IMG/VR virus record: IMGVR_UViG_3300029319_000242
Span: 1-32,847 of that record
Origin: a virus
Strand: one strand, 5' to 3'
DNA: 32,847 bases
A program made the position numbers and the translations under genes. The notes beneath the pieces are model-generated. The model ran no database searches. It was not told the origin of the DNA and saw nothing but the letters and a program-made list of their open reading frames with translations. Every line of letters starts with the position of its first letter. Within the stretch, counting starts at the first letter, position 1. This document shows, one piece after another, positions 176 to 22,900 of this stretch.

Positions 176-361
176 ATGAATTACAGACAATTAAGAGACG
201 AGTTACTCACACTTAGTGATGAACAGTTAGAGTTAACAATTACTGTACTTAATCGGGATAGTGAATATTTTACAAGTACAATTGGCGGTCTTTATTATTC
301 AACAGAGGAGGACGATTACAATGAGGTTCTTGTTGCTGGACACCCGTATCTTATGGTATAA
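176..361 (+). CDS. Small conserved hypothetical protein (61 aa)
   Basis: This is a short acidic protein beginning MNYRQLRDELLTLSDEQL. It resembles a type of small ORF common in marine phage and cyanobacterial sequences that begins with a YRxLRxxLxxLxxEQL helix and ends in a GHP motif (here AGHPYLMV). Function is unknown. There is no membrane segment or signal peptide. The ATG is preceded by CCCACTAAC and a weak GAGG rather than a strong Shine-Dalgarno; the CCACTAA sequence recurs before two other ATGs in the noncoding region downstream. A gene-free stretch of about 960 bases follows. The family impression is from memory and unverified. Confidence 0.6.
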   Translation: MNYRQLRDELLTLSDEQLELTITVLNRDSEYFTSTIGGLYYSTEEDDYNEVLVAGHPYLMV

Positions 362-723: not shown

Positions 724-752
724 GTGACAAAATAACACTTTTCGTGTATAAT
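724..752 (+). promoter_or_regulatory. Putative sigma70 promoter
   Basis: GTGACA (724-729), a 17-base spacer and a perfect TATAAT (747-752). This suits host sigma70-type polymerase. No long gene follows within 500 bases, so the transcript would be a leader or noncoding RNA reading through the repeat region. Confidence 0.45.
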
Positions 753-816
753 AGCCTCATAAAGTAACAGAAACCTTATGAACAGTTAGTATTAATTAAG
801 GACATAAGATTGCAGA

Positions 817-834
817 GAGTTCGTGATACTTAGT
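817..834 (+). repeat. 18-bp direct repeat GAGTTCGTGATACTTAGT, copy 1
   Basis: Perfect 18-bp direct repeat; the second copy is at 1048-1065. Here it abuts the DnaA-box-like hairpin. The last ten bases, GATACTTAGT, also occur just before the gp15 start codon at 31971-31980, which may be chance. Confidence 0.75.
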
Positions 835-902
835 TTTCCACAATTACCTGTGGAAAAGTGTAAAGAACTGTGTGGCCTTATGTGTTAACAACCTGTGGAA
901 AA
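834..902. promoter_or_regulatory. Cluster of three DnaA-box-like 9-mers (TTTTCCACA)
   Basis: TTTTCCACA lies at 834-842 on the + strand and at 849-857 and 894-902 on the - strand. The first two are separated by six bases (ATTACC) and form a perfect 9-bp inverted repeat. The second and third share the longer ACCTGTGGAAAA (846-857, 891-902). TTTTCCACA is, to my knowledge, the form of DnaA box described at cyanobacterial origins, differing by one base from E. coli TTATCCACA. One other copy was seen inside the gp8 gene (19598-19606), so single copies arise by chance, but three in 69 bases is unusual. Confidence 0.55.
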
Positions 903-1011
903 CTTAGTGCATAAAAGTGTCAAGAATAGGTGCACAATCTGTATAGAGTGAGTATAAACAATTCACACAGACTTGAAGCCCTTATGTGATACTTTCCCGC
1001 CTTATAATAAC

Positions 1012-1041
1012 TTGACAGATTAACAGTTATTATGATACAAT
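1012..1041 (+). promoter_or_regulatory. Putative sigma70 promoter
   Basis: Perfect TTGACA (1012-1017), an 18-base spacer and TACAAT (1036-1041). Transcription would start at about 1048, at the second copy of the 18-bp repeat. It could drive the small gene at 1321. Confidence 0.5.
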
Positions 1042-1047
1042 TAGGGG

Positions 1048-1065
1048 GAGTTCGTGATACTTAGT
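1048..1065 (+). repeat. 18-bp direct repeat GAGTTCGTGATACTTAGT, copy 2
   Basis: Exact copy of 817-834. In both places the 18-mer is followed by a CCTTATG element and AACAAC (at 876-892 after copy 1, and 1068-1087 after copy 2). Copy 2 lacks the TTTTCCACA hairpin found between them after copy 1. This looks like a partial, degenerated tandem duplication of about 230 bases. Confidence 0.75.
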
Positions 1066-1320
1066 GACCTTATGAGTTATTAACAACAATTGACAGTGTT
1101 TTGTGCCCTTATGTGTTGTTATGCCCCGCCCCTTGCCGTTTAAAAGCTGCTAACTACCCTAACCTACAGAGGTGACAAACCGAGAGAGTAATATAAGACC
1201 ATAAAAAAAATTCTGAGATATAAAACGACCACCAAATACCCTGATAGATAAAAAATTTCCCATGGCCTCAAACGCCCTCAGAGGTCTCATAAGAATTCGA
1301 AAGTAATATATAAACTAAAA

Positions 1321-1568: not shown

Positions 1569-2324
1569 ATGGCAAAAGGATTTACAGTAAAGACTGCAGC
1601 ACCAACAAAGAAGAAAACAGACACCTTTGATCTGGCAGCAGCAAAAGAGATGATAAAAGGAAAGACAATTGTATTCTGTTTACCAGGTAGAGGAGTTTCC
1701 TACCAGTTTCTGAAGAGTTTTGTATCCTTATGCTTTGATCTGGTTCAGAGTGGGGCAAGTATCCAAATCTCTCAGGACTACTCATCGATGGTCAACTTTG
1801 CTCGATGTAAGTGTCTTGGTGCAAATGTACTACGAGGGCCTGACCAGTTACCGTGGGATGGTAAACTGAAGTATGACTATCAGTTATGGATAGACTCTGA
1901 TATTGTATTCAATACCGAACAGTTCTATCGTCTTGTAGCACATGATAAGGATATTGCAGCAGGTTGGTACATGACAGAAGATGGAAGAACTACCTCAGTT
2001 GCCCACTGGTTAGAAGAAGGTGATTTCCGTTCCAATGGTGGAGTCATGAATCACGAGACTGGTGAATCCATGTCCAAGCGTAAGAAACCTTTCACAGTGG
2101 ATTACACAGGATTCGGTTGGGTTCTTATAAAGAACGGAGTATTCGAGCACGAGAAAATGAAGTATCCGTGGTTCGCTCCTAAGATGCAGGTGTTTGAGTC
2201 TGGTGAAGTACAGGATATGTGTGGAGAGGATGTTTCTTTCTGCCTAGATGCAATGGATGCAGGTTTTGAGATCTGGTGCGATCCTACAATCAGAGTTGGT
2301 CATGAGAAGATGCGGATTATTTAA
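1569..2324 (+). CDS. Glycosyltransferase-like protein (GT-A type)
   Basis: This 251-residue protein looks like a compact GT-A glycosyltransferase. The segment DYQLWIDSDIVFN contains a DSD triad (residues 109-111) in the position of the DxD motif that binds metal and the sugar nucleotide. GEDVSFCLDAMDAGFEIW (from residue 219) resembles the ED motif that supplies the acceptor-activating acid, and RVGHEK (about 242-247) ends the fold with a histidine typical of such enzymes. The N-terminal 20 residues are lysine and threonine rich. No signal peptide or membrane segment is visible, so it should act in the host cytoplasm. Substrate is unknown: virion protein glycosylation, DNA base modification or host surface modification are all possible. 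It follows a sigma70-type promoter and has no strong Shine-Dalgarno. Confidence 0.7.
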   Translation: MAKGFTVKTAAPTKKKTDTFDLAAAKEMIKGKTIVFCLPGRGVSYQFLKSFVSLCFDLVQSGASIQISQDYSSMVNFARCKCLGANVLRGPDQLPWDGKLKYDYQLWIDSDIVFNTEQFYRLVAHDKDIAAGWYMTEDGRTTSVAHWLEEGDFRSNGGVMNHETGESMSKRKKPFTVDYTGFGWVLIKNGVFEHEKMKYPWFAPKMQVFESGEVQDMCGEDVSFCLDAMDAGFEIWCDPTIRVGHEKMRII

Positions 2325-2706: not shown

Positions 2707-3378
2707 ATGGCTTGTTTAATTGCGAATTTACCATCCTATGAAGTATGGGTAAGAAAAGAGTACCTGACCGACCATAAGAGTGGTCATGGTGAGTTTGTGA
2801 AAGGAGTATGGGTATCTGCAAAGAGTATACCTGGTAGAGCATTCTATTTCGAGACTTACTTACCAGATTATGCTGCGATGTTTGATAAATTACCGATCTC
2901 TGCCTTCACAAGCGACCCTGAGACACCCAAACCTGATATGACCCTACATAATCTTCAGTTTTGGAATTGTATGGACTACGGAGTCGTAGCGGTGCAGAAG
3001 CAGTTTATTGGTTCAATGCACTATGAGGTTTATACAAGAGACTACGGAACGCAAACTGGTACATATATTTGCACTCTTGACAACTATCATCAGGATGTAG
3101 ACGCAATTGACTACTCGACAAGTGAACAACCAGCTGAACATAAGAGTCATAACCTCTTAGAACTTGATAATGGACAGTTTTGTCTGTATCCAAACAACAG
3201 AATGAGGATCTATGATAACAGTTTGACACCAGAAACACCCAAAGTTCCTGATTTTAATGTATCAACCGTATATTATCAGGTAGAAAACGGTCATGATCGT
3301 GATGGATTGGGTTCAGAAGAGAATTATTTCTGGAAAACTGCTAAAGAACGTAAAGGAGGTAAAGAAAATGAGTTTTGA
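2707..3378 (+). CDS. Conserved cyanophage protein of unknown function (223 aa)
   Basis: The N terminus, MACLIANLPSYEVWVRKEYL, and the VWVSAKSIPGRAFYFETYLP segment (about 36-55) look like a family I associate with T4-like cyanophages, usually found among structural or accessory genes and without assigned function. It is soluble and rich in aromatic residues (Y, F, W), with HxxxH-like spacing near DNYHQDVDAIDY but no recognisable catalytic motif. The C-terminal 20 residues are charged (KERKGGKENEF). The start directly follows the preceding stop. Its last 11 bases overlap the next gene's start, and the Shine-Dalgarno AAGGAGGT (3353-3360) for that gene lies within its 3' end. Confidence 0.65.
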   Translation: MACLIANLPSYEVWVRKEYLTDHKSGHGEFVKGVWVSAKSIPGRAFYFETYLPDYAAMFDKLPISAFTSDPETPKPDMTLHNLQFWNCMDYGVVAVQKQFIGSMHYEVYTRDYGTQTGTYICTLDNYHQDVDAIDYSTSEQPAEHKSHNLLELDNGQFCLYPNNRMRIYDNSLTPETPKVPDFNVSTVYYQVENGHDRDGLGSEENYFWKTAKERKGGKENEF

Positions 3379-4265: not shown

Positions 4266-4667
4266 ATGCCCGTACAAATATCCCGTGCATTTAAGGATAT
4301 TAGTTTATCCTTTTCAAGACATCCAGTTACAAATGACATTGTAGTTCTCCGAAATGAGGACGCAATCAAGAAATCGGTAATTAATTTATGCCGAACTAAA
4401 CTTAATGAGCGATTTTTTAATGAATTATTAGGTACACAAATTGAAGAATCACTGTTTGACTTAAATAATGGTGACATTGCATCTATTTTAGAGACAGAAA
4501 TAGAGACTTTATTGGAAAACTATGAGCCTAGAATATCTTTAAACGATGTTTCTGCCGTAGCAAGACCTGATGAGCACGATTTATACATTCGTATTGGTTA
4601 TTTTATTACAGGATTACCTTTTCCTGCACAAAATATAGAATTTTTACTACAACCGACTAGGGTATAA
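4266..4667 (+). CDS. 25: Baseplate wedge subunit gp25
   Basis: 133 residues, almost exactly the T4 gp25 length (132). The N terminus MPVQISRAFKDISLSFSRHP followed by TNDIVVLRNEDAIKKSVINL and a central ELLGTQIEESLFDL is the characteristic gp25/GpW pattern shared by contractile-tail baseplates. gp25 is the sheath-nucleating wedge subunit at the top of the inner baseplate, where it joins gp6 and the first sheath ring. The gene is first after the late promoter and its TAA shares a base with the ATG of gene 6 (TAATG), so the two are translationally coupled. Confidence 0.92.
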   Translation: MPVQISRAFKDISLSFSRHPVTNDIVVLRNEDAIKKSVINLCRTKLNERFFNELLGTQIEESLFDLNNGDIASILETEIETLLENYEPRISLNDVSAVARPDEHDLYIRIGYFITGLPFPAQNIEFLLQPTRV

Positions 4668-6547
4668 TGGCATTTAATCAGTTTACTAACTTAGATTTCA
4701 ACGATTTACGCACTCAAATTAAGAATTATTTGAGATCTAGTTCATCATTTACGGATTTTGACTTTGAAGGGTCGAACTTCTCTGTATTAATAGACACTTT
4801 AGCGTATAATTCATATATTACATCATATAATACTAACATGGCTGTCAATGAATCTTTCATTGATAGTGCTACTTTAAGAGAAAATGTCGTTTCTTTGGCA
4901 AGAAATATAGGTTATGTACCTAGATCCAAGAAATCTGCTATTGCAAGAATAACTTTTAGTATTGACATAACAGGAAAACCAGCACAAACAGTAAAATTAC
5001 ACAAAGGAATCGTTGCAGTTGGATCACTTCAAGGTGGTAATTACATATTTTCTATTCCAGACGACATTACTGCGACTCCAAATTCTAGTGGTATCGTTAC
5101 TTTTGATAATATTTCAATTTATGAAGGAACATATTTAACAAAAACCTTTACAGTTAATGATTCTTTACCAGATCAAAAGTATATTATTCCAAATGAGAGT
5201 ATCGATACATCAACAGTTCGTGTAACAATCAAATCTAACGTTGAGGAAACCTATGTTCCTTATACAAACATCTTTGATGTGAATAAAGACTCAAGATTGT
5301 TCCTAATTCAAGAGATTGAAGACGAAAAATATCAAATTATATTCGGAGATGGTACTTTAGGTAAAAAACCAGCTGACAAAAGCACTATTGAAGTCAGTTA
5401 TATCATGACAAATGGCATTGAAGGTAATGATGCTTCTAATTTTAACTTCAGTGGTAAGTTAACTTATATGCTTGGTGGTGTTGAAACAAGTATTGACGAT
5501 GGTATTGCTAGTTTAAGCACTCTACAAGCGTCTGAAAACGGTGACGAGATAGAATCTATAGACAATATCAAATATCTTGCTCCAAGGGTATATGCGTCCC
5601 AGTACAGAGCAGTCACTCCAAACGATTATTCGAGTTTAATACCATTTTTATACCCAAATATTGACTCCGTGAGTGCTTATGGAGGTGAAGAGTTAGATCC
5701 ACCTCAATATGGTAAAGTTTTTATTACAGTTAAACCAAAAAATGGTGAAATACTATCCTCAATAACAAAAGACTCAATCAAAAATGACTTGAAAAAGTAC
5801 ACAGTTGCTGGAATTAAACAAGAATTTATTGATTTGAAGTATTTGTACGTTGAATATGAGTCAACAGTGTCATATGACTCTGGATATATTCCAGATCAAC
5901 AACAATTAAGATCTAGAATCCTTTCAGCTATCGAATCTTATTCAAAATCAGCAGATATTAACTCATTTGGTGGAAGATTGAAGTATAGTAAATTGGTTTC
6001 CACTATTGATAGGGTTGATACTGGTATTACATCAAACATTACTAATATTGTAATGAAGAGGATTATGGTTCCAGAGTATAATTTACTTGCTAACTATGAA
6101 ATTTGTTATGGAAATCAATTTCATGCTGATATGGAGGGTTTTAATGTTAGATCTTCTGCATTTAAGTTAGAAGGTGTTGCTGGAAATGTATATTTGACTG
6201 ATTTGCCATATAGTGATGGAAAAACAGGAACTGTTAAGTTCTTTACTATTGAAGATAATGCAATTAAATATATTAATGAAAATGCAGGTATAGTTGACTA
6301 TGTTCATGGTGAAATTATCCTTTATCCAACAATTATTACTTCTAGTAGCGTAAAATCTGGAATTGAGATTGAAGTTACTCCAGAATCCAATGATATTATC
6401 GCAAAAGAGAGCATTTATATCGTGCTAGATAATACTGGAAGTACATTAAATCTTAAAGAAGATACAATTGTTGCTGGAGCTAACAAATCTGGAACAAATT
6501 ATGTACCACCATCAAGTTTCATCAGTGCTAAAAAGTATACAAGATAA
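4667..6547 (+). CDS. 6: Baseplate wedge subunit gp6
   Basis: 626 residues against about 660 in T4 gp6. The N-terminal segment reads FNDLRTQIKNYLRSSSSFTD, then GSNFSVLIDTLAYNSYIT and ESFIDSATLRENVVSLARNIGY (about residues 10-90), the classic gp6/baseplate-J pattern. The middle carries IFGDGTLGKKPADKSTIEVSY (about 226-246), the conserved FGDG motif of the gpJ family, and APRVYASQYRAVTPNDYSSL (about 305-324). gp6 forms the iris-like inner ring of the baseplate wedge with gp25 and gp53 and clamps gp7. It lies between gp25 and the gp7-like gene with minimal spacing, as in T4 order. Confidence 0.93.
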   Translation: MAFNQFTNLDFNDLRTQIKNYLRSSSSFTDFDFEGSNFSVLIDTLAYNSYITSYNTNMAVNESFIDSATLRENVVSLARNIGYVPRSKKSAIARITFSIDITGKPAQTVKLHKGIVAVGSLQGGNYIFSIPDDITATPNSSGIVTFDNISIYEGTYLTKTFTVNDSLPDQKYIIPNESIDTSTVRVTIKSNVEETYVPYTNIFDVNKDSRLFLIQEIEDEKYQIIFGDGTLGKKPADKSTIEVSYIMTNGIEGNDASNFNFSGKLTYMLGGVETSIDDGIASLSTLQASENGDEIESIDNIKYLAPRVYASQYRAVTPNDYSSLIPFLYPNIDSVSAYGGEELDPPQYGKVFITVKPKNGEILSSITKDSIKNDLKKYTVAGIKQEFIDLKYLYVEYESTVSYDSGYIPDQQQLRSRILSAIESYSKSADINSFGGRLKYSKLVSTIDRVDTGITSNITNIVMKRIMVPEYNLLANYEICYGNQFHADMEGFNVRSSAFKLEGVAGNVYLTDLPYSDGKTGTVKFFTIEDNAIKYINENAGIVDYVHGEIILYPTIITSSSVKSGIEIEVTPESNDIIAKESIYIVLDNTGSTLNLKEDTIVAGANKSGTNYVPPSSFISAKKYTR

Positions 6548-6550
6548 GAA

Positions 6551-9500
6551 ATGACATCTAAAAAAGTACAAATATCTGATATCCTGAGTAATTTAATACC
6601 TGATTTTGTAAAATCAGATCATCCAAAATTCAAAGAATTTTTAGAGCAATATTATATTTCTGAAGAGCATACTTATGGAACAACTTATCTTGCTGACAAT
6701 TTAAACGAATTTAAGAAAATATCTAATCTGGTAGATATTTCTTTAGCAGAAGAACAAACTTTACCTCCCCCAAATGCTCTTGCTCCAACAAAACCTATTA
6801 TATTGGCAGTTGATACATTGGCATATGACTCATCAATTTATCTAGCCCATAGTAATACTACTGTAACTCCAGCAGAAACATTATCAATTCCTGTAGAAGG
6901 TCTTCCTGATACTTATGGACTTATTAAAATTGACAATGAAATTATCACTTATACGAATAAATCATTTAATGAAAGTACTGGATTAACTGAGTTAAGTGGA
7001 TGTGTTCGTGGTTTTAGTGGTATTTCTGAAATTGATAATCCAAGTAATCCAGAATTTTTAACATTTTTAGATAGTAATGGTCAATCTCATGAATCGGGAA
7101 CAATTGTTGTCAATTTAAATTTTATATTTTTAAATAAATTTTACGAAAAACATAAACAACAATTCTTACCAGGACTTGAAAAAAGAAAATTTAAACAAGG
7201 TCTCTCAGCTGAGAATATATTATCGAGAGCAAGAGACTTCTATAGTTCAAAGGGAACTGATGTTTCTCTAAAAATCTTATTTCAAGTATTATTTGGAGAA
7301 GAAGTAAGTGTAGTTAAACCTTTTAATGAAACGATTATTCCATCTGAAGCAAGATGGAGTGTTACTGATGATATGATCGTGGAAGCTTTAAGAGGTAATC
7401 CACTTAACTTAATTGGTACAAAATTATTTCAGGGTGATGAAGATTCTCCAACAGCATCAGGTGCTGCGGAAAATGTTAAACAAGTATTTTTAGGAAGTAA
7501 AAAATATTTTAAAATTTCTTTTGTTAAAGGATCAGTTATTAATGAAAAAGAACCAGGTTTACCTCCTGAGTTTGTTATTAATAGTAAAACTAAAATTTTG
7601 GAAGGATTGCAAGATAAAAGTGTTGTAACTGTTGATTCTACTGTAGGATTTCCAGAAAAAGATGGTGTCTTTTATTATTTGGAAAGAAATCCAATAAGTT
7701 TAGAAGAATTTTATTCCACAGTATCTTATGGATCTAAATCATATAATCAATTTTTTGATTGTATTGGTATTGGTAACTTACCTGTAGGACTTGGTTTAAC
7801 GGTTGGTTTGGGAAGAGAAATTCCAGTTATCAGTGGCAATTTTCTTTATGGGTATGAGGATAATGATGAAAGTAAAGTATGTGAAATGAGAATTGTTGGG
7901 TCAGTCTCAGGTGTCTCAGCAAACGTTAGTAGTACAAAATATTTTAATGTAGATGATATTATTAGAGTTAAACATTTAGGTGAAAAAACAGATGTAGAAG
8001 ATCCAAAATTTAATAAGTGGTTTTATAATAATATTTCAGAGATAGAAATTTCAGATTTACCGAAATCAGATCCAAGTAACACAACATCAGACACTATTGT
8101 AACACCAGTAAATCATTTTTTAAAAGTTGGCGATAAAATTGATGTTTTTAACATTGATACTGATTTTATAGCTGTCAATCAAAGTGGTGATAAAATTCAA
8201 AGTGCCGAGGTAATGAGTATTGAGAGTGATAGAAAATTTAAGATTTCTGATAGTATAGTAGTTGGATTTAATTATAAATTTAGAAAAAGATTAGATTATG
8301 TCTCTACTGGTTTTGGTATAACTTCTCTACTTGGTAATATTCAAAATACTTTTGTTGATTCTGAAAATAATACATATCTAACTTTTTCTGGATATCCATC
8401 TTTTGATACAAGTACTAATAGTGGTGAAAAAACTTTTGAATCCGTTGGCGTATCTACTCAAAATTCGCAAATAACAATTACAAACCACCAATTTGTTAAT
8501 GGTGAAAGGGTTTATTATAAATCACCAACAATTGGTATTACTACCCTCGGTGAAACGGGAGTAGAATTCTATACTTCAGAAAATAAGTTTGGCCAAGTTG
8601 GTTTTGGAAATACATTTGAGAGTGGATATTATTTTGTCAATAAAGTTGATAACAATACAATAAGGTTATGTGTTGGTCAAAATAGAGTAGTTACTGAAGA
8701 TTTTGAGTTAATCAAATATACTGGTATTTCGACAAATGCTGTACATACTCTTATTCCTGCAAAAATATACGAATCTAGTGGATTAAAAAATCAAAAAAAC
8801 TTTAAACGTATATTAAAAACTCCATTATTAGCAGAAACTAATTCAGAAATTGTTGGGCCTGTTGGAGTTTCATTAAATGGAGTTGAATTACACTCTCCTT
8901 TAAGTCAAAATTCTATTTTTTATGGGCCTATACAAGAAATTGAAATTTTAGATAGTGGAAAGGGTTATAGTATAGTCAATCCACCAAATATATCAGTTAT
9001 TGACTCTAATGGTAGTAATTGTGAATTATATCCTGCTTTTTCTGGAAAAATATCAAAAATAAATCTTCTTACTGGTGGATTTGATTATGTTGACACTCCC
9101 ACCGTAACAGTTACTGGTGGAAATGGATCTGGAACAGTATGTAAACCAAAAATGAGATCTTTGACTCATTCTATTGGTATTGATGATGCCCAGATTTCTA
9201 TTGGATCGTCATCAATCACACTTCCTACTGATATTGATGGTATACAATCAGAACATAAATTTTTAGATGGGGAAGAAGTAATATACAGTACAACAGGCAC
9301 TCCAATAGGTATCACTAGTACAAATGTTGGATTCTCTACTGATAAATTAACTTCTAGTGGTAGATATTTTATTTCAAAAGTTGATAATAATACTTTTCGT
9401 TTAGCTATTACAAGAGATAGAGCACTTAACAAAACAAAATTAATTGAATTCAATGCATTAGGTAATAAAGGTCACAACTTTAAATCTGTAAAAACAAGAA

Positions 9501-12500
9501 AGATAATTGATGAGATTGCAGTTATTGATTCAGGTTCCAAATATACTAACAGAAATATTGTAGTTGATGCTCAATCATATCCACCATCAGATAAAAAAGA
9601 CTTAATTAATACTTTTAGTGGAATTGATACTCATAGGAATTGTATATATGCAAAAAATCATTATTTCAACGAAGGTGATATTGTTGAGTATGTTGTTAAT
9701 GCTAACGGAAATAATAATAGGATTGTTGGGTTAAATACAATGACTCAATATAAAATTAGTAAAATATCTGACGATAAATTTAAACTTGCTGATATAGGCC
9801 CTACTGAAGATACCAATTATGCAATTTCAGCTGATTTTAGAAGAACTGCTAGATTAGCAGTAGATGGACATACTTATGTGAGTGGTGCTACCTCATGGCA
9901 ACAGACAGATGATCCAAGTACTTTTGCTGGTTTTGTTGGCATAACATTAAGAAATTTAAGAGTTGGTGAAAAGTATAGAATTTCACTAAGAATCGATAAT
10001 AATGCTACTCTTGATGGTGGTGGAAGGATGCATAGAGTTCATAGTAGATTAACTAATGTCCGAACAGATTTTACTCATTGGAATACAGGTGCTCCAACTG
10101 GATTACTCATTGGAGAATTTACTGCAGAAAGTGAAAATCAAGAAGAATTTTTGTTCTATTGCAATAACATTACAGTTAATGTAAGTGATTTTAAAGTTGA
10201 ATTAATTGAGAATAATTACACTGACTATGAAAGAAAAATATATGCAAATTTAAACAGTGTTGGAGTTGGAGTTGGAACAATTACTCCAAATATAACTCAT
10301 ACATTTAAATATCCAGATATTAAAGTAAACATTGATGGTGTTGTTTCTGCTGGAACTACAAGTACCATTCCATCATATTATAATGCAACAGCAGATGTAG
10401 AAATAAAAGGTAATGTTGAAAACGCTTATATTAGAAACGGTGGTATTGCATATGGTACAGAAAATATTATAAACTACTCAAGACAACCAAATATTGAGTT
10501 ATTGACTGGAAGTGGTGCAGCTTTAGTGCCAATCATTGAGGCAGGTGAAATTGTAGATGTAATGATATTAACTCAGGGTAAAAACTATACAAGTGCTCCT
10601 GATTTACAAGTTGTAGGGACAGGTACAACTCAAGGTTTTGCTAGGTTAAAAGCAAATGTTTCTGATGGAAAATTAATTTCGGTTGATATCCTTAATGGTG
10701 GAAAAAATTATGTTAGAAATCAAACAGATATTATAGTTATTCCTAGTGGAGAAGGAGTTAGATTTAATGCTGAAATTTATGAATGGAAATTTAATGCAGT
10801 AAAATATTATGATAAGTACCTTTCTAATATTGATAATGATGCAATGGTTCAAATTACGTCACCTCAATTATTTAAAGGTGTTAAAGTTTGTTCATTCTAT
10901 CCAGGTCAAAAATATCGTAGAATTTTGGGAGATAATATAGGAGAATCTCCAAATTATACTGAAGAGTGTTTGGAACATGGTAAACTAATTGGATGGGCTT
11001 ATGATGGAAATCCAATTTTTGGTACTATAGGTGAAAGAACAGGTATTGGAGTTACATGGATGCAATCTAGTTATTCCATTGATCTTATTACAGAAACTGG
11101 TTTAAGACCATCTACTTCTATATGGGAATCTGGTTATTTTGTTCAAGATTATACTTATGATCAAAGTGGCGATCTTGATGAATTCAATGGTAAGTTTATA
11201 AAACCAGGAGAAGTTGAAGATTTCCCAGAAGGAACATATGCATATTTTTCTACATTAGATATTGATAGTAAAAAACCAAGTTTTCCATATATTACACTAA
11301 AACATCACAACCATACTGATGAATTTAATTATGATGGAGTTAGAGATCAAAGTGATGAGTACATTAATACAGGAGAGTATAAAAGAAATGTGACTCATTT
11401 GGGAATGAATCAGAATTTTGTAGAATACCCATTCCTTAAAGAACCATTACAATCAAAAGTTGAAATAAGGGTAGATTCAATAGAAAAATCCAATATTCAA
11501 AGCATAGATGTTAGTGATGGTGGATCTGGATATAATGTAGGTGATATAATCAAATTTAATGACAATAGAGTAAGTGCTGAAATTTCTGAAGTTTTGGGAG
11601 AACCTATTGTTTCCATAGCAACAACAGAGAGTTTGTTTGATAATGTTAAATTTTCATATTTTGATGGAAAAGTTACTGGTATAACAACTATACCACATTC
11701 TTTAAATTCAATGGAAGATGTCGAAATTACAGGAATAAGTTCGGCACTTTATAAAAATATTGAAGGATTTAGAAAAGTTGGTATTACTACAGTAAGCACT
11801 AATTTAGCTGTTGCTATTGGAAATACTACATTGGATACGAATATTTCGTTAAATGGATCTACTCTTAGTGGAAATTTTGAAATAGATGATGAAATACAAA
11901 TTAACGCAGAAAAAATGCTCATCATTGGTGTTGATAAAATCAATAACAAATATAGAGTTTCTAGGGGATATGATAATACTACACCTGCAGAACATGCAGT
12001 GGATTCTGAAGTTAATAAATTATTGAAAAAATTTACTTTTGATATAAATGGAAAGTTTGAGAATAAAAATATTGCATTTAGTAGAGTTAAGTATTTTGTA
12101 GGTGAATCTTCTGTTGGAATTGGTACTCTCTACACTAATGTAGTTGTTGGAACTGCTGGTAGTAGTAATATTAATAAATCCATTCCACCACGAGCAATTT
12201 ATTTACCAGGTCATCAATTTAAGACTGGTGATGCAGTTACTTTGGTTGGATATGGATCTACTATTTGGGGATCAGAAAGTGTTGGTTTAGGTAATACATT
12301 CAAACTTGCAGAAATGCCCAATTTGTACACTGTTAAACTTAGTGATGAGTTTATTGGGTTAGCAACTGTAAGAAATTATATTGGACTGTCTACAGCACAC
12401 GTATACTTTGCGGGTATTGATACTTATTGGGGTGATAGTAATAAACTTGAAACTATTGAAGATAATATTACTGGAAAATTAACTAAAATTAATGCTACTG

Positions 12501-15500
12501 TTTCTGTTGCAGCTGCAACAACTACAGGATCTCAACACCCTTTAATTGTTGGAGATAATGTAAGACTTAACATTACACCTAATCAGACACAAAATTTTAA
12601 TTTTGCTTACAACACTACTATCAACAGACTCATTGTCAATCCTGTTTCAATAGCATCTACTGTGACTACCTTGTCCGAATCAATTAATTCTGGAACAAAT
12701 GGAATATCTATTGCACAAGATGAATTCATTATACCAAATAACGATTTTGAAACTGGTGACATTGTAGTTTATACTGGTTCAAATGCTGTGGAACCTTTAG
12801 TTAATAATGAGACTTATTATGTAATAAAAAATAGTACTGATACTATTAAGTTAGCACTTAACGAGTATGATCTTAGTGTATTTCCTAATAATAATATTTC
12901 ATTAACATCTGTTGGTTCAGGATCCCATCAGATTGCTAAAATAAATCCAAAATTAATTTTTTACAAGGGAAATAACGTTTCAATTGCAACTTCCGATGCT
13001 AGTTTAAGTGGTTATGATATTGATTTTTATGCTGATTCTAATTTTATAACAAAAATTAATTCTCCTGATATAACAAAGATAGGAACAATTGGTGATGAAG
13101 ATATATCTACAAAAATTAATATTTCAATAGGTAGTTCTTTCCCAAGCAATTGTTTTTATAAAGTTGAAGGTAAGGGAAGTAATTATATGAACACATATCC
13201 AAGTTCAGTGGATACAAATGTTATAAATTACTCAAATATTTCTACAATAGATTCTAAATTTAATAAAAATCATACAATTACTGGAATTGGTGATACTACG
13301 TTTAGTTTTACTTTAGTTGGTGCTGCTGAAACTAGTTCATATGAAAATACTGGATTTAGTAGTTCATTCTATAGCACAAATTCTAAAAATACAAAAGGTG
13401 GTGTTCATTCTGTAAAACTTATAAGTTCTCCAGATAATTTAAGTACTTTACCTATTCTTACATCAGTATCTTCCAGCAATGGAAAAGGAGTAGTATTTGA
13501 TATTCAATCTGATAATATTGGAAAAATACAATCTGTTACTGTTCCTTATCAGGGATTAGAATTTTCACCAGATAATACATTAAGACCAAAAGCAGATAGT
13601 AATGTAATACTTAATTTAAAAAACACTTTAACTTTATCAAAGATTGGTATTGCTACTGGTGGTAGAAATTATGCGAATGGGCCAAAAGTTATTGGAATTA
13701 ACAAACCATTAATTTCTGGAAGAGCTAATCTTAAGGGTGGAGCAGTTGACAGTATTGATATTTTATCAAATGATAGTAACTTAAATGAAACCTTAGAAAT
13801 AATTTCTACAAACAATACAAATGGTGTTGGTATAGTTAATGCTACTTCTGATTTTAATATTACGAGACAACAACAAGAAAATAAGATTTTTATAAAAGTA
13901 CCTACCAATTACACTGGATTTAGTACTGATTCTGATTTTCCATTCCAAAGAGGAGAAAACATATATGTTGAAAATGTAGATAATGTTGGTGGAGCAAATA
14001 CAACAGCTAGTGGATATAATTCATCTGGATATGATTTTAGATTATTCAAAGTTACTGATATCGATATAGTAAGTGATCAAGAAAGTGTTAGTTACTCTAT
14101 TCAAGGAATAGGAAATACTGGTGGTACTTATGATAATACTAATAATTTTGGTAGAATAATAAGAGAAGCAGATTTAGCTAAATTTACACCAGAATTTAAA
14201 AAAGTAGAATTTTTTGAAGGTGAAATAGTAAAATCTTCTAGTGGTGCTACTGGTACTGTTAGTGTTGGTGGTTGGAACTCAGAAAATGATATATTAAAAT
14301 TATCGAATATTCAGGGAGAATTTAAAAAAGATGATATTATTACTGGTACTATTAGTAATGCTAAATCAACCGTAAATTCTTTATTTGTTTCTGAATTTGA
14401 TTTAGAAATTGATAGTGTTGTAGAATCTATCAATGATTGGAGAGATGATGTTGGTAAATTGAATTTAGATAATCAGAGAGTTCATGATAATGATTATTAT
14501 CAAAGATTTTCATATGCCATTAAAGGTGATGTTCCTTACGATAAGTGGAAAGATCCTGTAAATAGTCTTACTCATATTTCTGGATTTAAGAATTTTGCTA
14601 ATCTAGGAATATCTTCTACTGTTTCTGCTTTATCAAAACCAGATGGTGATCTTGAGGTAAGAATAGACCTTTCAAGTGAAGCTTCTGTTTTTGAAAGACC
14701 TTGGTTTGATTATGTAACTGAAGTGACAGATAGTAATATATTCTCTAAAATTATCAAATTTAATAATAAAACAATAACAAATTATAATGAATCTGTAACT
14801 AATAAAGTGCTTTTGGTTAATGATGTAAGTTCAGAATTTACTGGAAAATCTAGCACGTTTACTGGAGAACATAGATTTGTAAACGCTGCTGATGATGGAA
14901 TTAACAAAACTGGTGGTGGTAGTTTAACTGCAACTAGTGGAACAGCATATGATCCAGTAACTGGAGTTTTAACTGTAGTCACTACAACTGTTCATGGTCT
15001 TTCTGATGGAGATACTATAACACTCAATAATGATAGTCTTACATTTAAATGCTCAAAAGATAACTATGCTACTGATCACACCTATCCAAGAAAGACTGAT
15101 CCAGCATCTACTTCAAATACCCAATTTAATAATGGATTATTGGAAGTAACTGTTGTTGATCCTAATACATTCACTGTTGTAGTTAATACTCCAATAACTG
15201 GAGGTCAAATTGTTGGTGTGAGTACATTTACATTGAATACAAATATCAATGGTGTAGACTATAGTTTGTTACATCATTCATTTAACCCAGCTACATCTAC
15301 AAATATTGATGATATAACAAAACATTCATTCAATATTCCAAATCACTATTTTAATACTGGGGAGGTGATACATTACGCCCCTAAAACTGCTGGAAATTCC
15401 ATTGGTATAGTAACAACAACTGTTGCTGGTATTGGTGTTACTGACAAATTACCACCAACATTATATGCAATAAGAGATAGCGATCAAAACTTTAGAGTAG

Positions 15501-18277
15501 CAGTATCGAAAGCAGATGCTGTTGATAGCACTGGAATTGGAGTTACTTTTGTCACTTCTGGTGGTTCTGTCCCAACATATGGTGGATCTGGACATACATT
15601 TAGTGTCCCAACAAGAGATGCAACCGCTAGAAGTTTAATTTTAATTGATAACATCATTCAAAGTCCACTAGCAAGGAGAGATATATCATTAGAATTATCT
15701 GGGCCAGTAGGTGTTGGATCTACGGTTGTTTATGTTGCCGATGCAACTCAATTAGCAGGAAAATCAATTGTTCAAATTAATGATGAAATTATAAAGGTAA
15801 ACACCGTTGGTATTGGGTCTACAACAGCATTAGAAGTTAGTAGAGGTGCAATGGGTACCCAAATAGGTGTTCATACAGTTGGAGCAGGAATAACTGCTAT
15901 ATCAGGTGATTATAGAATTGAAAAAGGTAAAATATATTTTACTACTCCTCCTTACGGGAAGTCTGGAATACACAGCACAAGTTCTTCTTTCCGAGGAAGA
16001 ATATTCTATAGGTTAGATTATACTGATAATAATATTATTGATGATCTTTCTGATACATTTACTGGATCTCAGACTGAATTTACATTACGAAGTGAAGGGA
16101 CAAAACTTCCTGTAGGTATTAGTTCTTTCTTTGGTATTATTCTCATTAATAATATTTTCCAAAGACCTTGGTATGCTGATCTTGGAAGTTCCAGTCAAAA
16201 CGATTATATAGTTGGAACTGGTGTGACAGTTACATTTACTGGAACTGCAGCAGATGGAGATCTTCCAAGAGGTGGTGTTATTAATGAATTTTCTGTGGGA
16301 ATTGGTAGTGGATATCAAATTCCAACTAGGGCGATAGCAACCCCTGTTGTTTCTGCTGCAGGAACTATTGCTTCTGTTGCTATTAATACTGCAGGGCAGG
16401 GATATATTTCATCTCCAAGGGTTTCTATTGGGGTTACATTCCCTTATGGAACAGGAACTGAGGCATTATTAGATGCTCATATTAATAATGCTGGTATTGT
16501 TACTGGTATAACTGTTGTCAATCCAGGTAGTGGATATACGACATCAAACCTTCCTACTTTGACAATTGATGAACCTTCACCATATATTAATATCCCATTA
16601 ACAGGTGGAAGTGGATCTAATGCAACAATGGATGTTGTTGTTGGAACTGGGGGAAGTGTTGTTTCCTTTGCTATCAATAATCGTGGAATAGGTTATGAAG
16701 TTGGAGAGAATCTTATATTATCTGGATTACCAGTTCAAGCTGGAATTGGAACAAGTGCTTTTAATATAACAATTGAAAATGAATATAAAGATAAATTTGC
16801 TTCTTGGAATTTTGGTAAATTCTTAGAAATGGATGATTTAAGTCCATTCTTTAATGGATTTAAGAAAACTTTCTTAATAACCAGAACAACTGACTCTGAA
16901 GAATATTATAGTATTGATAAAAGAGCAGGTTCTGGAATAGTTTTGGCAAATAATCTTCTTATATTCTTAAATGATGTATTGCAGATGCCTGGAGAAGATT
17001 ATATCTTTGATAAGGGTACCAAAATAGAATTTAGAGAAGCACCTCCAAAGGGAAGTAAATTCAAGTTTTATCTTTACATTGGGTCTAATCAAGATGTAAA
17101 TGAAGTAGAAGTTGACGAAACTGTTAAGGTGGGTGATTTACTTCAGATCAGAGCAGGTATTGATACCCTTTCTAAGGATGATAATGGTAATGTGGAATAT
17201 AAAACTCTTAACTATCCTCCTTCACAGGACAATAGAACAGTTCACGAACTAACTGCTTCTGATCTTGTTAATACCAATACTTATTATGGCCAAGGTATTC
17301 TTGCCAATTCTGATTTTAGTAGACCAGTTGTTTGGACAAAACAAAGAGAGGATAAAATAATTGATGGTTTGTATGTTTCCAAAGAAAGAGATTATCTGGA
17401 ACCACAAATTTACCCAAATACAAAAGTCATAAAAAGTATTTCAGCAACGGATACTAAGATATATGTTGAGGATACTTATGCATTTTCTAATATCGATGCT
17501 TCTGTTGGTAGTGCATTAAATGATGTAAGAATTTCTGGATTGGCAACAGCAGCAACAGAATCTTGGACAGGAAGATCACCTTTTTCACTTGCTCAACAAT
17601 TTGATACTCAAACACCACCTAAACCCACACTTAAATATGAGAAAGAAATTGCAAGAGCAGTAAATGATGTCAATTCTTCACCAAGACCTCAAGCTGAAAT
17701 TTTAGATAATTGTACATATACTGGTGATTTTGGAGATGTTCTTGGTATTACAACTCATACAAGTGGAGTTGGTACTGCTACACCTTCCATCAAGTTTATA
17801 ATTAAACCAGATGCATCAATTTATAATGCAACTCCAAATAGTAAACAGAGATCTAAGTCTGGAATTACCACTGGTGATTACTTTGTTATTAGAAATACTG
17901 TAATTGGTAATGTTGGAGGTGGAACTACATCATTGAAAACAGGTGTTAATGATATAGTTTCAATAGGCAATAGTTTTATTGATAATGTTTATTATGCTAA
18001 TACTTGGGAAAATTATGCTTCTATAACTGGTGCTATAATGGTTACATCTAATGTAAATTCCTTATCTGGAATTGTTACTGGTGGTTTGAAAACTGGAGTC
18101 GGTAATACTATTTCTGTAGTACCAAATATTGGTACATATAGTTGGGGAACAATAAATGTTGCTTCTAGATCAGAAAATGCTAAAGCATTTGAAGTGAATC
18201 AAGTAGGACTCGCAACAGATACTATTGAAGCATCTAGAACATTACAAGTTCTACTAGAAAGTGATGATATTAGATAG
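6551..18277 (+). CDS. 7: Giant gp7-like baseplate wedge protein (3908 aa)
   Basis: One uninterrupted 11.7-kb frame. The N terminus (DHPKFKEFLEQYY, 23-35; ILSRARDFYSSKGTDVSLKI, about 223-242, then FQVLFGEEV) resembles the C-terminal part of T4 gp7 (FYSTKGIEASYKFLFKVLYNEEV, as I recall it). A second gp7-like piece, YYQRFSYAIKGDVPYDKW followed by HISGFKNFANLG, lies near residues 2649-2685. The thousands of residues between and after are modular: ten G-x-GY repeats, eight H-x-F-x-x-G-D modules, three IDNEI/RG-GT modules, a jelly-roll-like insert (about 1094-1221) and a YHYH-type domain (about 1440-1588). T4 gp7 has 1032 residues. Position between gp6 and gp8 supports the assignment; the role of the insertions (surface-exposed decoration or receptor contact) is inference. 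Confidence 0.75.
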   Translation: MTSKKVQISDILSNLIPDFVKSDHPKFKEFLEQYYISEEHTYGTTYLADNLNEFKKISNLVDISLAEEQTLPPPNALAPTKPIILAVDTLAYDSSIYLAHSNTTVTPAETLSIPVEGLPDTYGLIKIDNEIITYTNKSFNESTGLTELSGCVRGFSGISEIDNPSNPEFLTFLDSNGQSHESGTIVVNLNFIFLNKFYEKHKQQFLPGLEKRKFKQGLSAENILSRARDFYSSKGTDVSLKILFQVLFGEEVSVVKPFNETIIPSEARWSVTDDMIVEALRGNPLNLIGTKLFQGDEDSPTASGAAENVKQVFLGSKKYFKISFVKGSVINEKEPGLPPEFVINSKTKILEGLQDKSVVTVDSTVGFPEKDGVFYYLERNPISLEEFYSTVSYGSKSYNQFFDCIGIGNLPVGLGLTVGLGREIPVISGNFLYGYEDNDESKVCEMRIVGSVSGVSANVSSTKYFNVDDIIRVKHLGEKTDVEDPKFNKWFYNNISEIEISDLPKSDPSNTTSDTIVTPVNHFLKVGDKIDVFNIDTDFIAVNQSGDKIQSAEVMSIESDRKFKISDSIVVGFNYKFRKRLDYVSTGFGITSLLGNIQNTFVDSENNTYLTFSGYPSFDTSTNSGEKTFESVGVSTQNSQITITNHQFVNGERVYYKSPTIGITTLGETGVEFYTSENKFGQVGFGNTFESGYYFVNKVDNNTIRLCVGQNRVVTEDFELIKYTGISTNAVHTLIPAKIYESSGLKNQKNFKRILKTPLLAETNSEIVGPVGVSLNGVELHSPLSQNSIFYGPIQEIEILDSGKGYSIVNPPNISVIDSNGSNCELYPAFSGKISKINLLTGGFDYVDTPTVTVTGGNGSGTVCKPKMRSLTHSIGIDDAQISIGSSSITLPTDIDGIQSEHKFLDGEEVIYSTTGTPIGITSTNVGFSTDKLTSSGRYFISKVDNNTFRLAITRDRALNKTKLIEFNALGNKGHNFKSVKTRKIIDEIAVIDSGSKYTNRNIVVDAQSYPPSDKKDLINTFSGIDTHRNCIYAKNHYFNEGDIVEYVVNANGNNNRIVGLNTMTQYKISKISDDKFKLADIGPTEDTNYAISADFRRTARLAVDGHTYVSGATSWQQTDDPSTFAGFVGITLRNLRVGEKYRISLRIDNNATLDGGGRMHRVHSRLTNVRTDFTHWNTGAPTGLLIGEFTAESENQEEFLFYCNNITVNVSDFKVELIENNYTDYERKIYANLNSVGVGVGTITPNITHTFKYPDIKVNIDGVVSAGTTSTIPSYYNATADVEIKGNVENAYIRNGGIAYGTENIINYSRQPNIELLTGSGAALVPIIEAGEIVDVMILTQGKNYTSAPDLQVVGTGTTQGFARLKANVSDGKLISVDILNGGKNYVRNQTDIIVIPSGEGVRFNAEIYEWKFNAVKYYDKYLSNIDNDAMVQITSPQLFKGVKVCSFYPGQKYRRILGDNIGESPNYTEECLEHGKLIGWAYDGNPIFGTIGERTGIGVTWMQSSYSIDLITETGLRPSTSIWESGYFVQDYTYDQSGDLDEFNGKFIKPGEVEDFPEGTYAYFSTLDIDSKKPSFPYITLKHHNHTDEFNYDGVRDQSDEYINTGEYKRNVTHLGMNQNFVEYPFLKEPLQSKVEIRVDSIEKSNIQSIDVSDGGSGYNVGDIIKFNDNRVSAEISEVLGEPIVSIATTESLFDNVKFSYFDGKVTGITTIPHSLNSMEDVEITGISSALYKNIEGFRKVGITTVSTNLAVAIGNTTLDTNISLNGSTLSGNFEIDDEIQINAEKMLIIGVDKINNKYRVSRGYDNTTPAEHAVDSEVNKLLKKFTFDINGKFENKNIAFSRVKYFVGESSVGIGTLYTNVVVGTAGSSNINKSIPPRAIYLPGHQFKTGDAVTLVGYGSTIWGSESVGLGNTFKLAEMPNLYTVKLSDEFIGLATVRNYIGLSTAHVYFAGIDTYWGDSNKLETIEDNITGKLTKINATVSVAAATTTGSQHPLIVGDNVRLNITPNQTQNFNFAYNTTINRLIVNPVSIASTVTTLSESINSGTNGISIAQDEFIIPNNDFETGDIVVYTGSNAVEPLVNNETYYVIKNSTDTIKLALNEYDLSVFPNNNISLTSVGSGSHQIAKINPKLIFYKGNNVSIATSDASLSGYDIDFYADSNFITKINSPDITKIGTIGDEDISTKINISIGSSFPSNCFYKVEGKGSNYMNTYPSSVDTNVINYSNISTIDSKFNKNHTITGIGDTTFSFTLVGAAETSSYENTGFSSSFYSTNSKNTKGGVHSVKLISSPDNLSTLPILTSVSSSNGKGVVFDIQSDNIGKIQSVTVPYQGLEFSPDNTLRPKADSNVILNLKNTLTLSKIGIATGGRNYANGPKVIGINKPLISGRANLKGGAVDSIDILSNDSNLNETLEIISTNNTNGVGIVNATSDFNITRQQQENKIFIKVPTNYTGFSTDSDFPFQRGENIYVENVDNVGGANTTASGYNSSGYDFRLFKVTDIDIVSDQESVSYSIQGIGNTGGTYDNTNNFGRIIREADLAKFTPEFKKVEFFEGEIVKSSSGATGTVSVGGWNSENDILKLSNIQGEFKKDDIITGTISNAKSTVNSLFVSEFDLEIDSVVESINDWRDDVGKLNLDNQRVHDNDYYQRFSYAIKGDVPYDKWKDPVNSLTHISGFKNFANLGISSTVSALSKPDGDLEVRIDLSSEASVFERPWFDYVTEVTDSNIFSKIIKFNNKTITNYNESVTNKVLLVNDVSSEFTGKSSTFTGEHRFVNAADDGINKTGGGSLTATSGTAYDPVTGVLTVVTTTVHGLSDGDTITLNNDSLTFKCSKDNYATDHTYPRKTDPASTSNTQFNNGLLEVTVVDPNTFTVVVNTPITGGQIVGVSTFTLNTNINGVDYSLLHHSFNPATSTNIDDITKHSFNIPNHYFNTGEVIHYAPKTAGNSIGIVTTTVAGIGVTDKLPPTLYAIRDSDQNFRVAVSKADAVDSTGIGVTFVTSGGSVPTYGGSGHTFSVPTRDATARSLILIDNIIQSPLARRDISLELSGPVGVGSTVVYVADATQLAGKSIVQINDEIIKVNTVGIGSTTALEVSRGAMGTQIGVHTVGAGITAISGDYRIEKGKIYFTTPPYGKSGIHSTSSSFRGRIFYRLDYTDNNIIDDLSDTFTGSQTEFTLRSEGTKLPVGISSFFGIILINNIFQRPWYADLGSSSQNDYIVGTGVTVTFTGTAADGDLPRGGVINEFSVGIGSGYQIPTRAIATPVVSAAGTIASVAINTAGQGYISSPRVSIGVTFPYGTGTEALLDAHINNAGIVTGITVVNPGSGYTTSNLPTLTIDEPSPYINIPLTGGSGSNATMDVVVGTGGSVVSFAINNRGIGYEVGENLILSGLPVQAGIGTSAFNITIENEYKDKFASWNFGKFLEMDDLSPFFNGFKKTFLITRTTDSEEYYSIDKRAGSGIVLANNLLIFLNDVLQMPGEDYIFDKGTKIEFREAPPKGSKFKFYLYIGSNQDVNEVEVDETVKVGDLLQIRAGIDTLSKDDNGNVEYKTLNYPPSQDNRTVHELTASDLVNTNTYYGQGILANSDFSRPVVWTKQREDKIIDGLYVSKERDYLEPQIYPNTKVIKSISATDTKIYVEDTYAFSNIDASVGSALNDVRISGLATAATESWTGRSPFSLAQQFDTQTPPKPTLKYEKEIARAVNDVNSSPRPQAEILDNCTYTGDFGDVLGITTHTSGVGTATPSIKFIIKPDASIYNATPNSKQRSKSGITTGDYFVIRNTVIGNVGGGTTSLKTGVNDIVSIGNSFIDNVYYANTWENYASITGAIMVTSNVNSLSGIVTGGLKTGVGNTISVVPNIGTYSWGTINVASRSENAKAFEVNQVGLATDTIEASRTLQVLLESDDIR
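10870..11316 (+). other. YHYH-type domain inside the gp7-like protein
   Basis: Residues about 1440-1588 contain HGKLIGWAYDGNPIFG (GWAYDG at 1481-1486), DLDEFNGKF (1541-1549), DFPEGTYAYF (1557-1566), PSFPYITL and then HHNH (1585-1588). The order GxAxDGxPIxG ... LDexNGxF ... FPxGTYAYF ... FPY is the signature of the YHYH family (PF14240), which I know from bacterial and marine proteins of unclear function. The call rests on motif order only; no alignment was run. Confidence 0.6.
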
Positions 18278-19910: not shown

Positions 19911-22900
19911 ATGACACAAAATACCAATCTGAACGTTTCTCCATATTTTGATGATTTTAACGAATCTAGAAATTATAGTAAGGTACTGTTTAAACCAGGA
20001 TTTCCGATTCAGGCAAGAGAATTAACTACTCTACAAACTATTCTTCAAAATCAAATTGAAAGATTTGGTCAACACTTCTTTAAAGAAGGATCAATGGTTA
20101 TTCCTGGTGGAACATTTTATGATCCTGATTATTGCTCAGTTAAAATTGATCCTAATTTTGTAAATATTCCAGTAAGAAATTACACTCAATTCTTAGCAGA
20201 CAATAAAATAGAAATAGAGGGAGAACTTTCTGGTGTAAGGGCTACAGTTGTTAATAGAATTACATCTACGGAATCAATAGACGGATTTGATACTCTATAT
20301 GTAAAATATAATAAATCTGGAAATGATGGAGAAACAAGAACATTTCAAAATGGAGAAAACTTAATTACCCTTTCGGATATTAATTTTTCAAATACGAGTA
20401 TTGAAGCAAATAATCAATTTGCTAGATGTATAGTTTCTGATGCAACATCAATAGGTTCTGCATTTTCTATTAGTGAGGGTGTATTCTTTATTCGTGGATA
20501 TTTTGTTCGAGTTCCAACTTCAACAGTAATTTTAGATCAATATACTAATAGTCCAAGTTATAGAGTTGGTTTATTACTTAATGAAGAAATAGTTAGGGCA
20601 TCTAATACTAATAGTGATCTTTTTGATAATGCAAAAGGATTTTCAAATGAGTCTGCACCAGGTGCTGATAGATTTAAAATATCAACAACTTTATCAAAGA
20701 AAAATTTAGATGATAATAACGATTTAGATTTTGTTGAATTACTACGTATTGAAGATGGTATTGTAAAAGAGCAGTTAAAGAAAACTGATTATAATATATT
20801 CAAAGATGAATTAGCAAGAAGAACATATGATGAATCTGGAGATTACTACATCAAACCATTTAATATTGATGTTAGAGAATCACTGAATGATAGAATATCA
20901 AATAGAGGTGTGTATTCATCACTTCAAACAACCCAGAATGGAAATACTCCATCTGATGATATTATGAGTTTACAGATAAGTCCAGGAAAGGCTTATGTAA
21001 GAGGATATGAAATAGAAAAAGTTTCAACTTCTTCTGTTGATGTAGTAAAACCAAGAACAACAAAATTAAAAGAAAATATAGCTGTTCCTATTAGAGTAGG
21101 AAATTATGTTAACGTTAACAGTATTACTGGTGCTCCTGCAATAGGATTTTCTACCAGTATTAATCTATTGGATAGAAGACTTAATACAAACAATAATAAT
21201 GGGAAAAATGAAGGTCAGGCAACAGGTGCAGTGGTTATAGGTAAGGCAAGAGTATACGACTTTAAACAAACAAGTCTTGTTGGTGTTGCAAATACAGTTT
21301 ATGAGACAAGACTATTTGATATACAAACATTTACTAATATAGGAGTTGCAGCAACTACAACAGGAATTAGTGCAGGTGTATATATTGAAGGAAAATATAG
21401 TGGTGCTAATGGATTTGTTGAATCTATGGGTGCGAATAACCTTAGCTTTAACTTAAATGATGTTAAAGGATCTTTCCAACTTAATGAACCACTTTTGGTT
21501 AGTGGTTTGGAAGCAGGAAGTAATATAACTTCTATTTCTGATTATGATTTCACATCCGCAAAAGCATTACACAGTCTTGATGGTGTAGGGGCAGGAGATA
21601 CCAGTTTTGCTGCTAACTTAGTTTTAGATAGAAAGAGAAACGTTTTTGAGTCTGGAATTGAATTTAGTATTACTGGTGATGTTTCTACTGCTACTGGTAC
21701 TGTATCAGGTGGAGGAATTGGAGATTTTAGAGATATAGTCAACGTTGGTGATACTCTTACTTACAGTTATTCATCTTCAGTTGATCCTGTATTCAATAGA
21801 GTAACTGAGGTAACTAAATCAAACTTTAGTATTGCTGGACTATCTACTGTTACTGGTGAATGTGACGGTGCTACTATTGCATCCCAATCACCTACTGGTC
21901 TTAATATTCTAGATCCAACATTGAATGCTAGTGATGATCCTGGTTTTAGAATCAAGTTGGCAAATATGAATGTTTCAAGTATTAACCTTTTGGATAGTTC
22001 TTATATTGTAAGAAAACAAATTACTAAGACTATAACATCCACTAATACAGTTATTATTTTTAATATAAGTGATATTGGTGGAGTAACTACAGATCTTTAT
22101 TTTGAACCATTCAGTAATGAAAATTATGTTTTAACTATTGCTAATATAAAAGAACCTTTAAGAGCATCTCAGGTAGTTGTTAATGATACACTTAAAACAG
22201 TTACAATAAGTGGATTATCTCGTAATGGATCTGCAACATTAACAGCAACAGTCAAGAGAAGTAAATTATCTTCTAAAGAAAAAACACTTACAAGGTGTTC
22301 TAATTTAGTTGTTGATAGATCAAAATATAGTGGATCTGGAATTACCACAACATCATTTAACGATGGCTTAACATATAGTACAGTATATGGAACAAGGGTA
22401 CAGGATAATGAAATTTCATTGAACGTTCCAGATCTCTACAGAGTATTAGCTATATTTGAATCTAACAACAAAGATAATCCAACATTACCATCAATAACTG
22501 TAGTGAGTCAGTCTGCTACATTTACTAATAATATTATTATTGGTGAGCAAATAATTGGAGCATCTTCTAACGCTGTTGGTAGAGTTGTTGTTGTTGATAG
22601 TGGAACAAAAATATCCTTTGTTTATGAAAATGATAAGTTTTTTGAGAAAGATGAACAAGTTACTTTCCAAACTTCTGGAATTTTTGCTGATATAAGTGTA
22701 TTAAATGAAGGTGATAGAAATATTACAAAGAGTTATAATGTTGATGATGGTCAAAGATTTGATTTTGCTGATTATGGAAGAATTGTAAGAAAGAAAGATA
22801 TAGAAGAACCAACAAGAAAAATTAGAATAGTATTTGATCACTATTCCACATCAGAAAGCAGTGGAGTAGTCGAATCTATTGATAGTTATACTGATGTAAA

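Follow-up and report, generated by a model that had tools for sequence, protein, structure and literature searches.

The window, which is the entire 32,847-bp viral contig of IMG/VR record IMGVR_UViG_3300029319_000242, comes from a T4-like cyanophage and includes its baseplate genes gp25, gp6 and gp7. A cluster of repeated words sits in a noncoding stretch (361–1320, about 960 bp), and the features of this stretch and its surroundings were located as follows.

176–361, plus strand: small ORF left of the locus, to which the predicted minus-strand transcript would be antisense
503–582, no strand assigned: A/T-rich candidate duplex-unwinding zone (TTAATAAATGGTTAAATAAATGTATAT), located by nearest-neighbour energy
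541–707, no strand assigned: E12 (A/T-rich zone and minus-strand promoter), the conserved 170-bp core element of the locus; matched by an iterated nhmmer model at 98.5 bits
660–688, minus strand: sigma70-type promoter TTGACT-N17-TAGAAT with extended −10; predicted start at about 652
724–752, plus strand: promoter-like GTGACA-N17-TATAAT, 11/12 consensus; such sites in the region do not exceed shuffles
774–1113, plus strand: five copies of CCTTATG (774, 876, 980, 1068, 1107), a local feature
817–834, plus strand: 18-bp repeat GAGTTCGTGATACTTAGT, copy 1, exact
834–842, plus strand: DnaA box TTTTCCACA, exact word match
849–857, minus strand: DnaA box TTTTCCACA, inverted partner of 834–842
894–902, minus strand: DnaA box TTTTCCACA, exact word match; kept in the relative L005
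1012–1041, plus strand: promoter-like TTGACA-N18-TACAAT between the boxes and E3, 11/12 consensus
1048–1065, plus strand: 18-bp repeat GAGTTCGTGATACTTAGT, copy 2, exact
1154–1178, plus strand: E3 CTACCCTAACCTACAGAGGTGACAA, conserved noncoding element at the right edge of the locus; found without mismatch in at least 120 IMG/VR contigs
1569–2324, plus strand: glycosyltransferase-like gene (T4-GC 102), syntenic marker
4266–6547, plus strand: genes for the baseplate wedge proteins gp25 and gp6, used as syntenic anchor; gp7 follows

The three exact copies of TTTTCCACA fall within 69 bp, and a fourth lies at 19598; this total of four compares with 0.72 expected in the window and was reached by only 1 of 100 shuffles. 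The boxes at 834–842 and 849–857 are perfect inverted copies separated by a 6-base loop. A sequence-only reading of the window had claimed this triplet and pair, an exact 18-bp direct repeat, five CCTTATG copies and an A/T stretch about 250 bases upstream, and all of these observations held. The nearest relative (L005) has all three boxes, identically arranged and with the inverted pair, while the remaining sequence differs; the pair is also present in P-TIM68 with a 5-base loop. The 18-bp repeat is missing from L005, and CCTTATG is kept there only in part. Five of the seven CCTTATG copies in the window sit in this cluster (4.4 expected window-wide), a clustering that is unusual though the word itself is not rare. 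We rejected CCTTATG as iterons, since its conservation stops at a close relative; both this word and the 18-bp repeat look lineage-specific and lie outside the conserved core.

Aligning the loci exposed a conserved element, E12, that is kept even without boxes. It had escaped the sequence-only reading, and it forms the core of a larger conserved locus that includes the boxes. An iterated nucleotide HMM (nhmmer) for E12 gave matches in 98 stretches, including those of P-SSM2, S-SSM7, S-SKS1, S-CAM9, S-SRM01 and Bellamy, and the element was found in 139 dereplicated T4-like cyanophage regions and in most isolates tested. Its place is upstream of gp25-gp6-gp7, at a distance of 2.3–7.5 kb from gp25 in the window, P-TIM68, DSL-LC03, S-PM2 and Syn9. 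The four complete isolate genomes checked (DSL-LC03, P-TIM68, S-PM2 and Syn9) each have a single significant match, which is weak in Syn9 (18 bits).

The A/T-rich zone at 503–582 ranks, by nearest-neighbour energy, in the least stable 0.19% of the contig's 80-bp windows. This instability is extreme in the window, P-TIM68 and a 284-kb contig and only moderate in Syn9, DSL-LC03 and S-PM2 (1.7–8% of windows); TTAATAAATGTA-type words within the zone are conserved. The promoter (688 to 660) points left, through the A/T zone and antisense to the plus-strand genes. Read as the reverse complement across relatives, the E12 promoter block is TTGACA/TTGACT-N17-TAGAAT with an extended −10, and its bases are the best-conserved part of the locus. 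A minus-strand promoter with at least 10/12 consensus was found in 95 of the 139 dereplicated regions, compared with 9 of 139 on the opposite strand and 41 of 1,390 in shuffles; it is not clear in Syn9 or S-PM2. Downstream of it, a minus-strand ORF of at least 60 aa was present in only 12 of 98 regions. No consensus RNA fold of the E12 region was found, and no Rfam family matched in the region. A dyad in E12, TTGTGAT-N16-ATCACAA, was considered as a hairpin or operator and dropped, being broken in several relatives; the promoter reading was kept because the promoter persists where the dyad breaks and no RNA fold was found. Separately, TTGAGAAT words recur between the A/T zone and the E12 promoter (34 versus 11.6 expected; L316, L266, L079 and L228).

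To count boxes around E12 without selection bias, box-scan loci, the contig reached from that scan and the window were all removed, which left 91 dereplicated E12 regions. These contain 93 copies of TTTTCCACA, where the flanking sequence of the same contigs predicts 0.84, and 28 of the 91 have at least two. In a nearly identical non-selected set, TTTTCCACA was the top enriched 9-mer, while an exact box was missing in 57 of 93 regions; DnaA therefore cannot be required in all lineages. One-mismatch variants were barely enriched (highest count 9 versus 3.7 expected), and the E. coli box form TTATCCACA occurred 6 times versus 0.4 expected. As a control, regions were anchored on short DNA patterns in place of the E12 HMM, and boxes were again enriched (61 versus 0.3 expected with the E2 anchor; 26 versus 1.9 with a second pattern set). 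Same-strand box spacings cluster at 11–12 and 20–22 bp and those of inverted pairs at 12–14, 23–25, 34–35, 56 and 78–79 bp. These spacings correspond to whole helix turns, as would be expected of a protein binding one helix face, an inference that rests on sequence alone. The boxes fill two zones, one around the A/T part and the other 100–200 bp right of E12, leaving the promoter free; in the window, about 250 bp separate them from the A/T zone, with the promoter in between.

The locus was also reached by a gene-blind IMG/VR scan for two spaced CTGTGGAAAAC words, which returned at least 120 contigs. About half of these contigs carry the glycosyltransferase-gp25-gp6 neighbourhood, in which as many as 8 boxes precede the glycosyltransferase gene. 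Among complete isolates, boxes less than 50 bp apart occur at the matching place in P-TIM68, S-SM2, DSL-LC02, DSL-LC03, Syn9 and S-PM2, whereas the cluster is missing at the locus in P-SSM2, P-SSM4, S-SSM7, Bellamy and others. In boxed complete isolates TTTTCCACA is rare genome-wide, at 3–10 copies per 170–200 kb, with at least two bunched at the locus. The two outcomes that would have counted against the sequence-only reading, a 9-mer equally frequent across the genome and a cluster not conserved in relatives, were thus not observed.

On a tree of 112 glycosyltransferase rows, box presence needs 19 changes versus 36.4 in shuffles, and at least 7 gains or losses are forced by well-supported branches. 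All members of one clade of 21 are boxed; those of a clade of 13, including P-SSM2, S-SRM01, S-SKS1 and Sf-CH5, are all box-less. Most of the box-less clade has TCTCGACGAG or TCTCGTCGAGA repeats to the right of E12, some of them within a small Asp-rich ORF. Because the box-less clade bears other repeats at this place, the accessory repeats seem exchangeable while E12 stays. More widely, near-palindromic TCTCGTCGAGA / TCTCGACGAGA repeats were observed to the right of E12 in mostly box-less lineages, partly inside a small Asp/Glu-rich ORF (L266, L079, L066, L065, L041, L054, L265, L272 and L316).

At the right edge of the locus, the E3 core is represented by 137 dereplicated copies, and no ORF, Rfam family or RNA fold accounts for the element. 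TATAAAAA comes before it and A/T runs come after it, and it varies hardly at all across more than 100 phage contigs (window 1154–1178; L331–L446).

The sequence-only reading had taken TTTTCCACA for the cyanobacterial DnaA box, and this held: most cyanobacteria have this word as their DnaA box, and binding has been assayed for Cyanothece and Anabaena (PMC4674748). Among bacterial genomes, many cyanobacteria contain triple TTTTCCACA arrays, but so do Clostridia, Saccharibacteria and others. We thus rejected the word as exclusive to cyanobacteria; because triple arrays occur in other phyla too, the motif points to DnaA and not to cyanobacteria alone. Binding of host DnaA to the cyanophage boxes is inferred, without binding data, and no paper on DnaA boxes in T4-like cyanophages was found in the literature searched.

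The closest resemblance in position is to T4 oriE, which lies just upstream of baseplate genes 6–7 (oriE is annotated at 79355 and gene 6 at 81081, 1.7 kb apart), as E12 lies upstream of gp25-gp6. The T4 origin yields a minus-strand primer RNA complementary to gene 5, and the cyanophage promoter has matching polarity, its transcription being inferred. An early-mode promoter serves oriE, and the cyanophage promoter is of sigma70 type in most of the 139 regions. Repeats lie nearby in both, but those of T4 are unrelated, 24-bp-spaced and inside gene 5, whereas those of the cyanophages are TTTTCCACA; the cyanophage element is, moreover, noncoding, and sequence kinship has not been shown. No DnaA boxes were found in the searched 76–86 kb of T4, T4-type 12-nt iterons are absent from the cyanophage locus, where the repeats differ, and equating the oriE repeats with the cyanophage boxes was rejected given that the former are 24-bp units within the gene 5 coding sequence. 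The oriE repeats themselves (L447 3403–3570; T4 79.4–79.6 kb) may reflect protein repeats rather than iterons.

In anatomy, the minimal origin of T4 oriF/oriG consists of a promoter and a downstream A/T-rich unwinding element, which E12 resembles only at the level of sequence layout. At oriF/oriG the A/T element is where the transcript forms an R-loop, whereas an R-loop in the cyanophages is inferred; the T4 promoters are MotA-dependent middle promoters, whereas the cyanophage promoter is plain sigma70, with a −35 of TTGACA or TTGACT and a 17-bp spacer. Like cyanobacterial oriC, the locus places several exact TTTTCCACA boxes beside an A/T-rich zone, an arrangement that is patchy among cyanophage relatives. 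It differs from oriC in having no adjacent dnaA or dnaN and in belonging to a lytic phage with its own replisome, in which box sets are gained and lost between relatives. The plasmid origins ColE1, R1 and R6K have DnaA boxes alongside an RNA primer or iterons. They share with the locus a promoter-derived primer or repeats plus host DnaA boxes in a compact origin; here, however, the setting is a large T4-like phage, no plasmid Rep protein was seen, and the likeness is not sequence-based.

We propose that the locus at about 500–1180 is the replication origin of this phage, an oriE-equivalent of R-loop type that recruits host DnaA in some lineages. The balance of evidence tips modestly towards this reading, in which origin activity and DnaA binding are both inferred. 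Host sigma70 RNA polymerase would start a noncoding transcript at the minus-strand promoter (688 to 660), and this transcript would head left across the A/T-rich zone (503–582). There the RNA may stay paired as an R-loop, by analogy with T4 oriF/oriG, supplying a 3′ end for leading-strand synthesis and exposing a single strand for the phage primosome. In boxed lineages, host DnaA on the helically phased TTTTCCACA copies around the core would help melting or replisome assembly. What is shown is that the boxes exist and are enriched and phased, that the promoter and A/T zone are conserved, that the locus is syntenic and that each complete isolate genome checked has a single E12; promoter firing, R-loop formation, DnaA binding and the start of replication at the locus are inferred. 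The evidence is accordingly strong for a conserved functional locus with DnaA-type sites and indirect for origin activity. Weighing against the proposal are the E12 regions that lack an exact box, the merely moderate A/T instability in Syn9, DSL-LC03 and S-PM2, the weak E12 of Syn9, the unclear promoter there and in S-PM2 and, in the window, the distance of the boxes from the A/T zone. Cumulative GC skew, one of the checks proposed at the outset, was computed for five sequences (DSL-LC03, P-TIM68, Syn9, S-PM2 and the 284-kb contig) and has no clear turn at the locus; it appears dominated by coding strand and is uninformative. A single theta origin has been predicted for Syn9, with no position given (review, PMC2984593).

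The sequence-only reading had offered three options, a phage origin using host DnaA, a DnaA decoy and a regulatory array; the first is the best supported, with binding still inferred, and the other two are weaker without being excluded. A transcription-control region remains possible: DnaA, which is also a known transcription factor, would bind the boxes and tune divergent promoters at the border of early and late baseplate genes, and the minus-strand RNA would be regulatory rather than a primer. The boxes do stand between the minus-strand promoter and a plus-strand promoter, and sigma70-type promoter bases are the best conserved. Against this, the minus-strand transcript serves no conserved gene, as the scarcity of downstream ORFs (12/98 regions) indicates, the flanking genes on both sides differ between phages, and neither the A/T zone nor the strict T4 oriE synteny would be necessary for such a role. 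It is improbable, though less so than a decoy, that a phage-encoded protein of DnaA-like specificity binds the boxes and uses the site as its own origin or control site. T4 oriE does involve the phage proteins RepEA and RepEB, and different binders must be possible given that box-less relatives have other repeats at the same place; yet it is the host DnaA box in its exact form, rather than any one-base variant, that is enriched, which is unexpected for a private phage protein.

A decoy, in which the boxes titrate host DnaA and halt host replication, has in its favour that several exact boxes are concentrated at one place and would multiply as phage genomes accumulate. We regard it as very improbable, since titration would call for neither helical phasing nor synteny nor a constant position next to a promoter and A/T zone, and the first injected genome brings just 3–8 sites; titration as a side effect is possible. 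Chance clustering or an assembly artefact, such as a host oriC in the contig, can be practically ruled out: no evidence supporting it was found, the contig is continuous phage sequence with gp25-gp6-gp7, and the same arrangement occurs in cultured complete phage genomes and dozens of independent contigs.

Under the preferred origin reading, the contrast between R-loop initiation and DnaA is probably false, because the core has the anatomy of a T4 R-loop origin and the boxes are an add-on. A bolder version, towards which we are rather more sceptical than favourable, is a conserved hybrid origin with an oriE-equivalent R-loop core and exchangeable accessory repeat modules, some lineages having taken up host DnaA boxes and others TCTCGTCGAGA-type repeats for a different binder. 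If true, a lytic phage with its own complete replisome would leave recognition of the origin to the host's initiator. T4-like cyanophages rank with the most abundant viruses of the ocean, and no mapped origin was found in the literature searched, only the Syn9 prediction. The locus offers a precise, conserved origin candidate (promoter, melting zone and initiator sites) in the culturable P-TIM68, S-SM2, Syn9 and S-PM2 and allows a comparative test of accessory-repeat change in oriE-type origins. It also raises the prospect that the phage needs host DnaA to replicate, which would tie infection to the light-following cyanobacterial cell cycle.

Several minor observations concern individual sequences. 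The 284,050-bp IMG/VR contig (that of L123; L250–L264) contains two complete E12-boxes-glycosyltransferase-gp25-gp6 sets; two origins in one genome were rejected as an explanation, and with two complete glycosyltransferase-gp25-gp6 sets it is probably two phage genomes joined. The S-PM2 boxes fall in stretches annotated as tRNA. ARAGORN detected no tRNA in this stretch (L226, NC_006820, 17.4–19.3 kb) despite several being annotated, and the annotation there looks misplaced. In the baseplate region of the window, 6551–18277 and 19911–27287 are very long ORFs of 3,908 and 2,458 aa. A 223-aa ORF at 2707–3378 is matched by a homologue of 87% identity in P-TIM68 that sits well away from the baseplate cluster (118 kb), which suggests a mobile gene.
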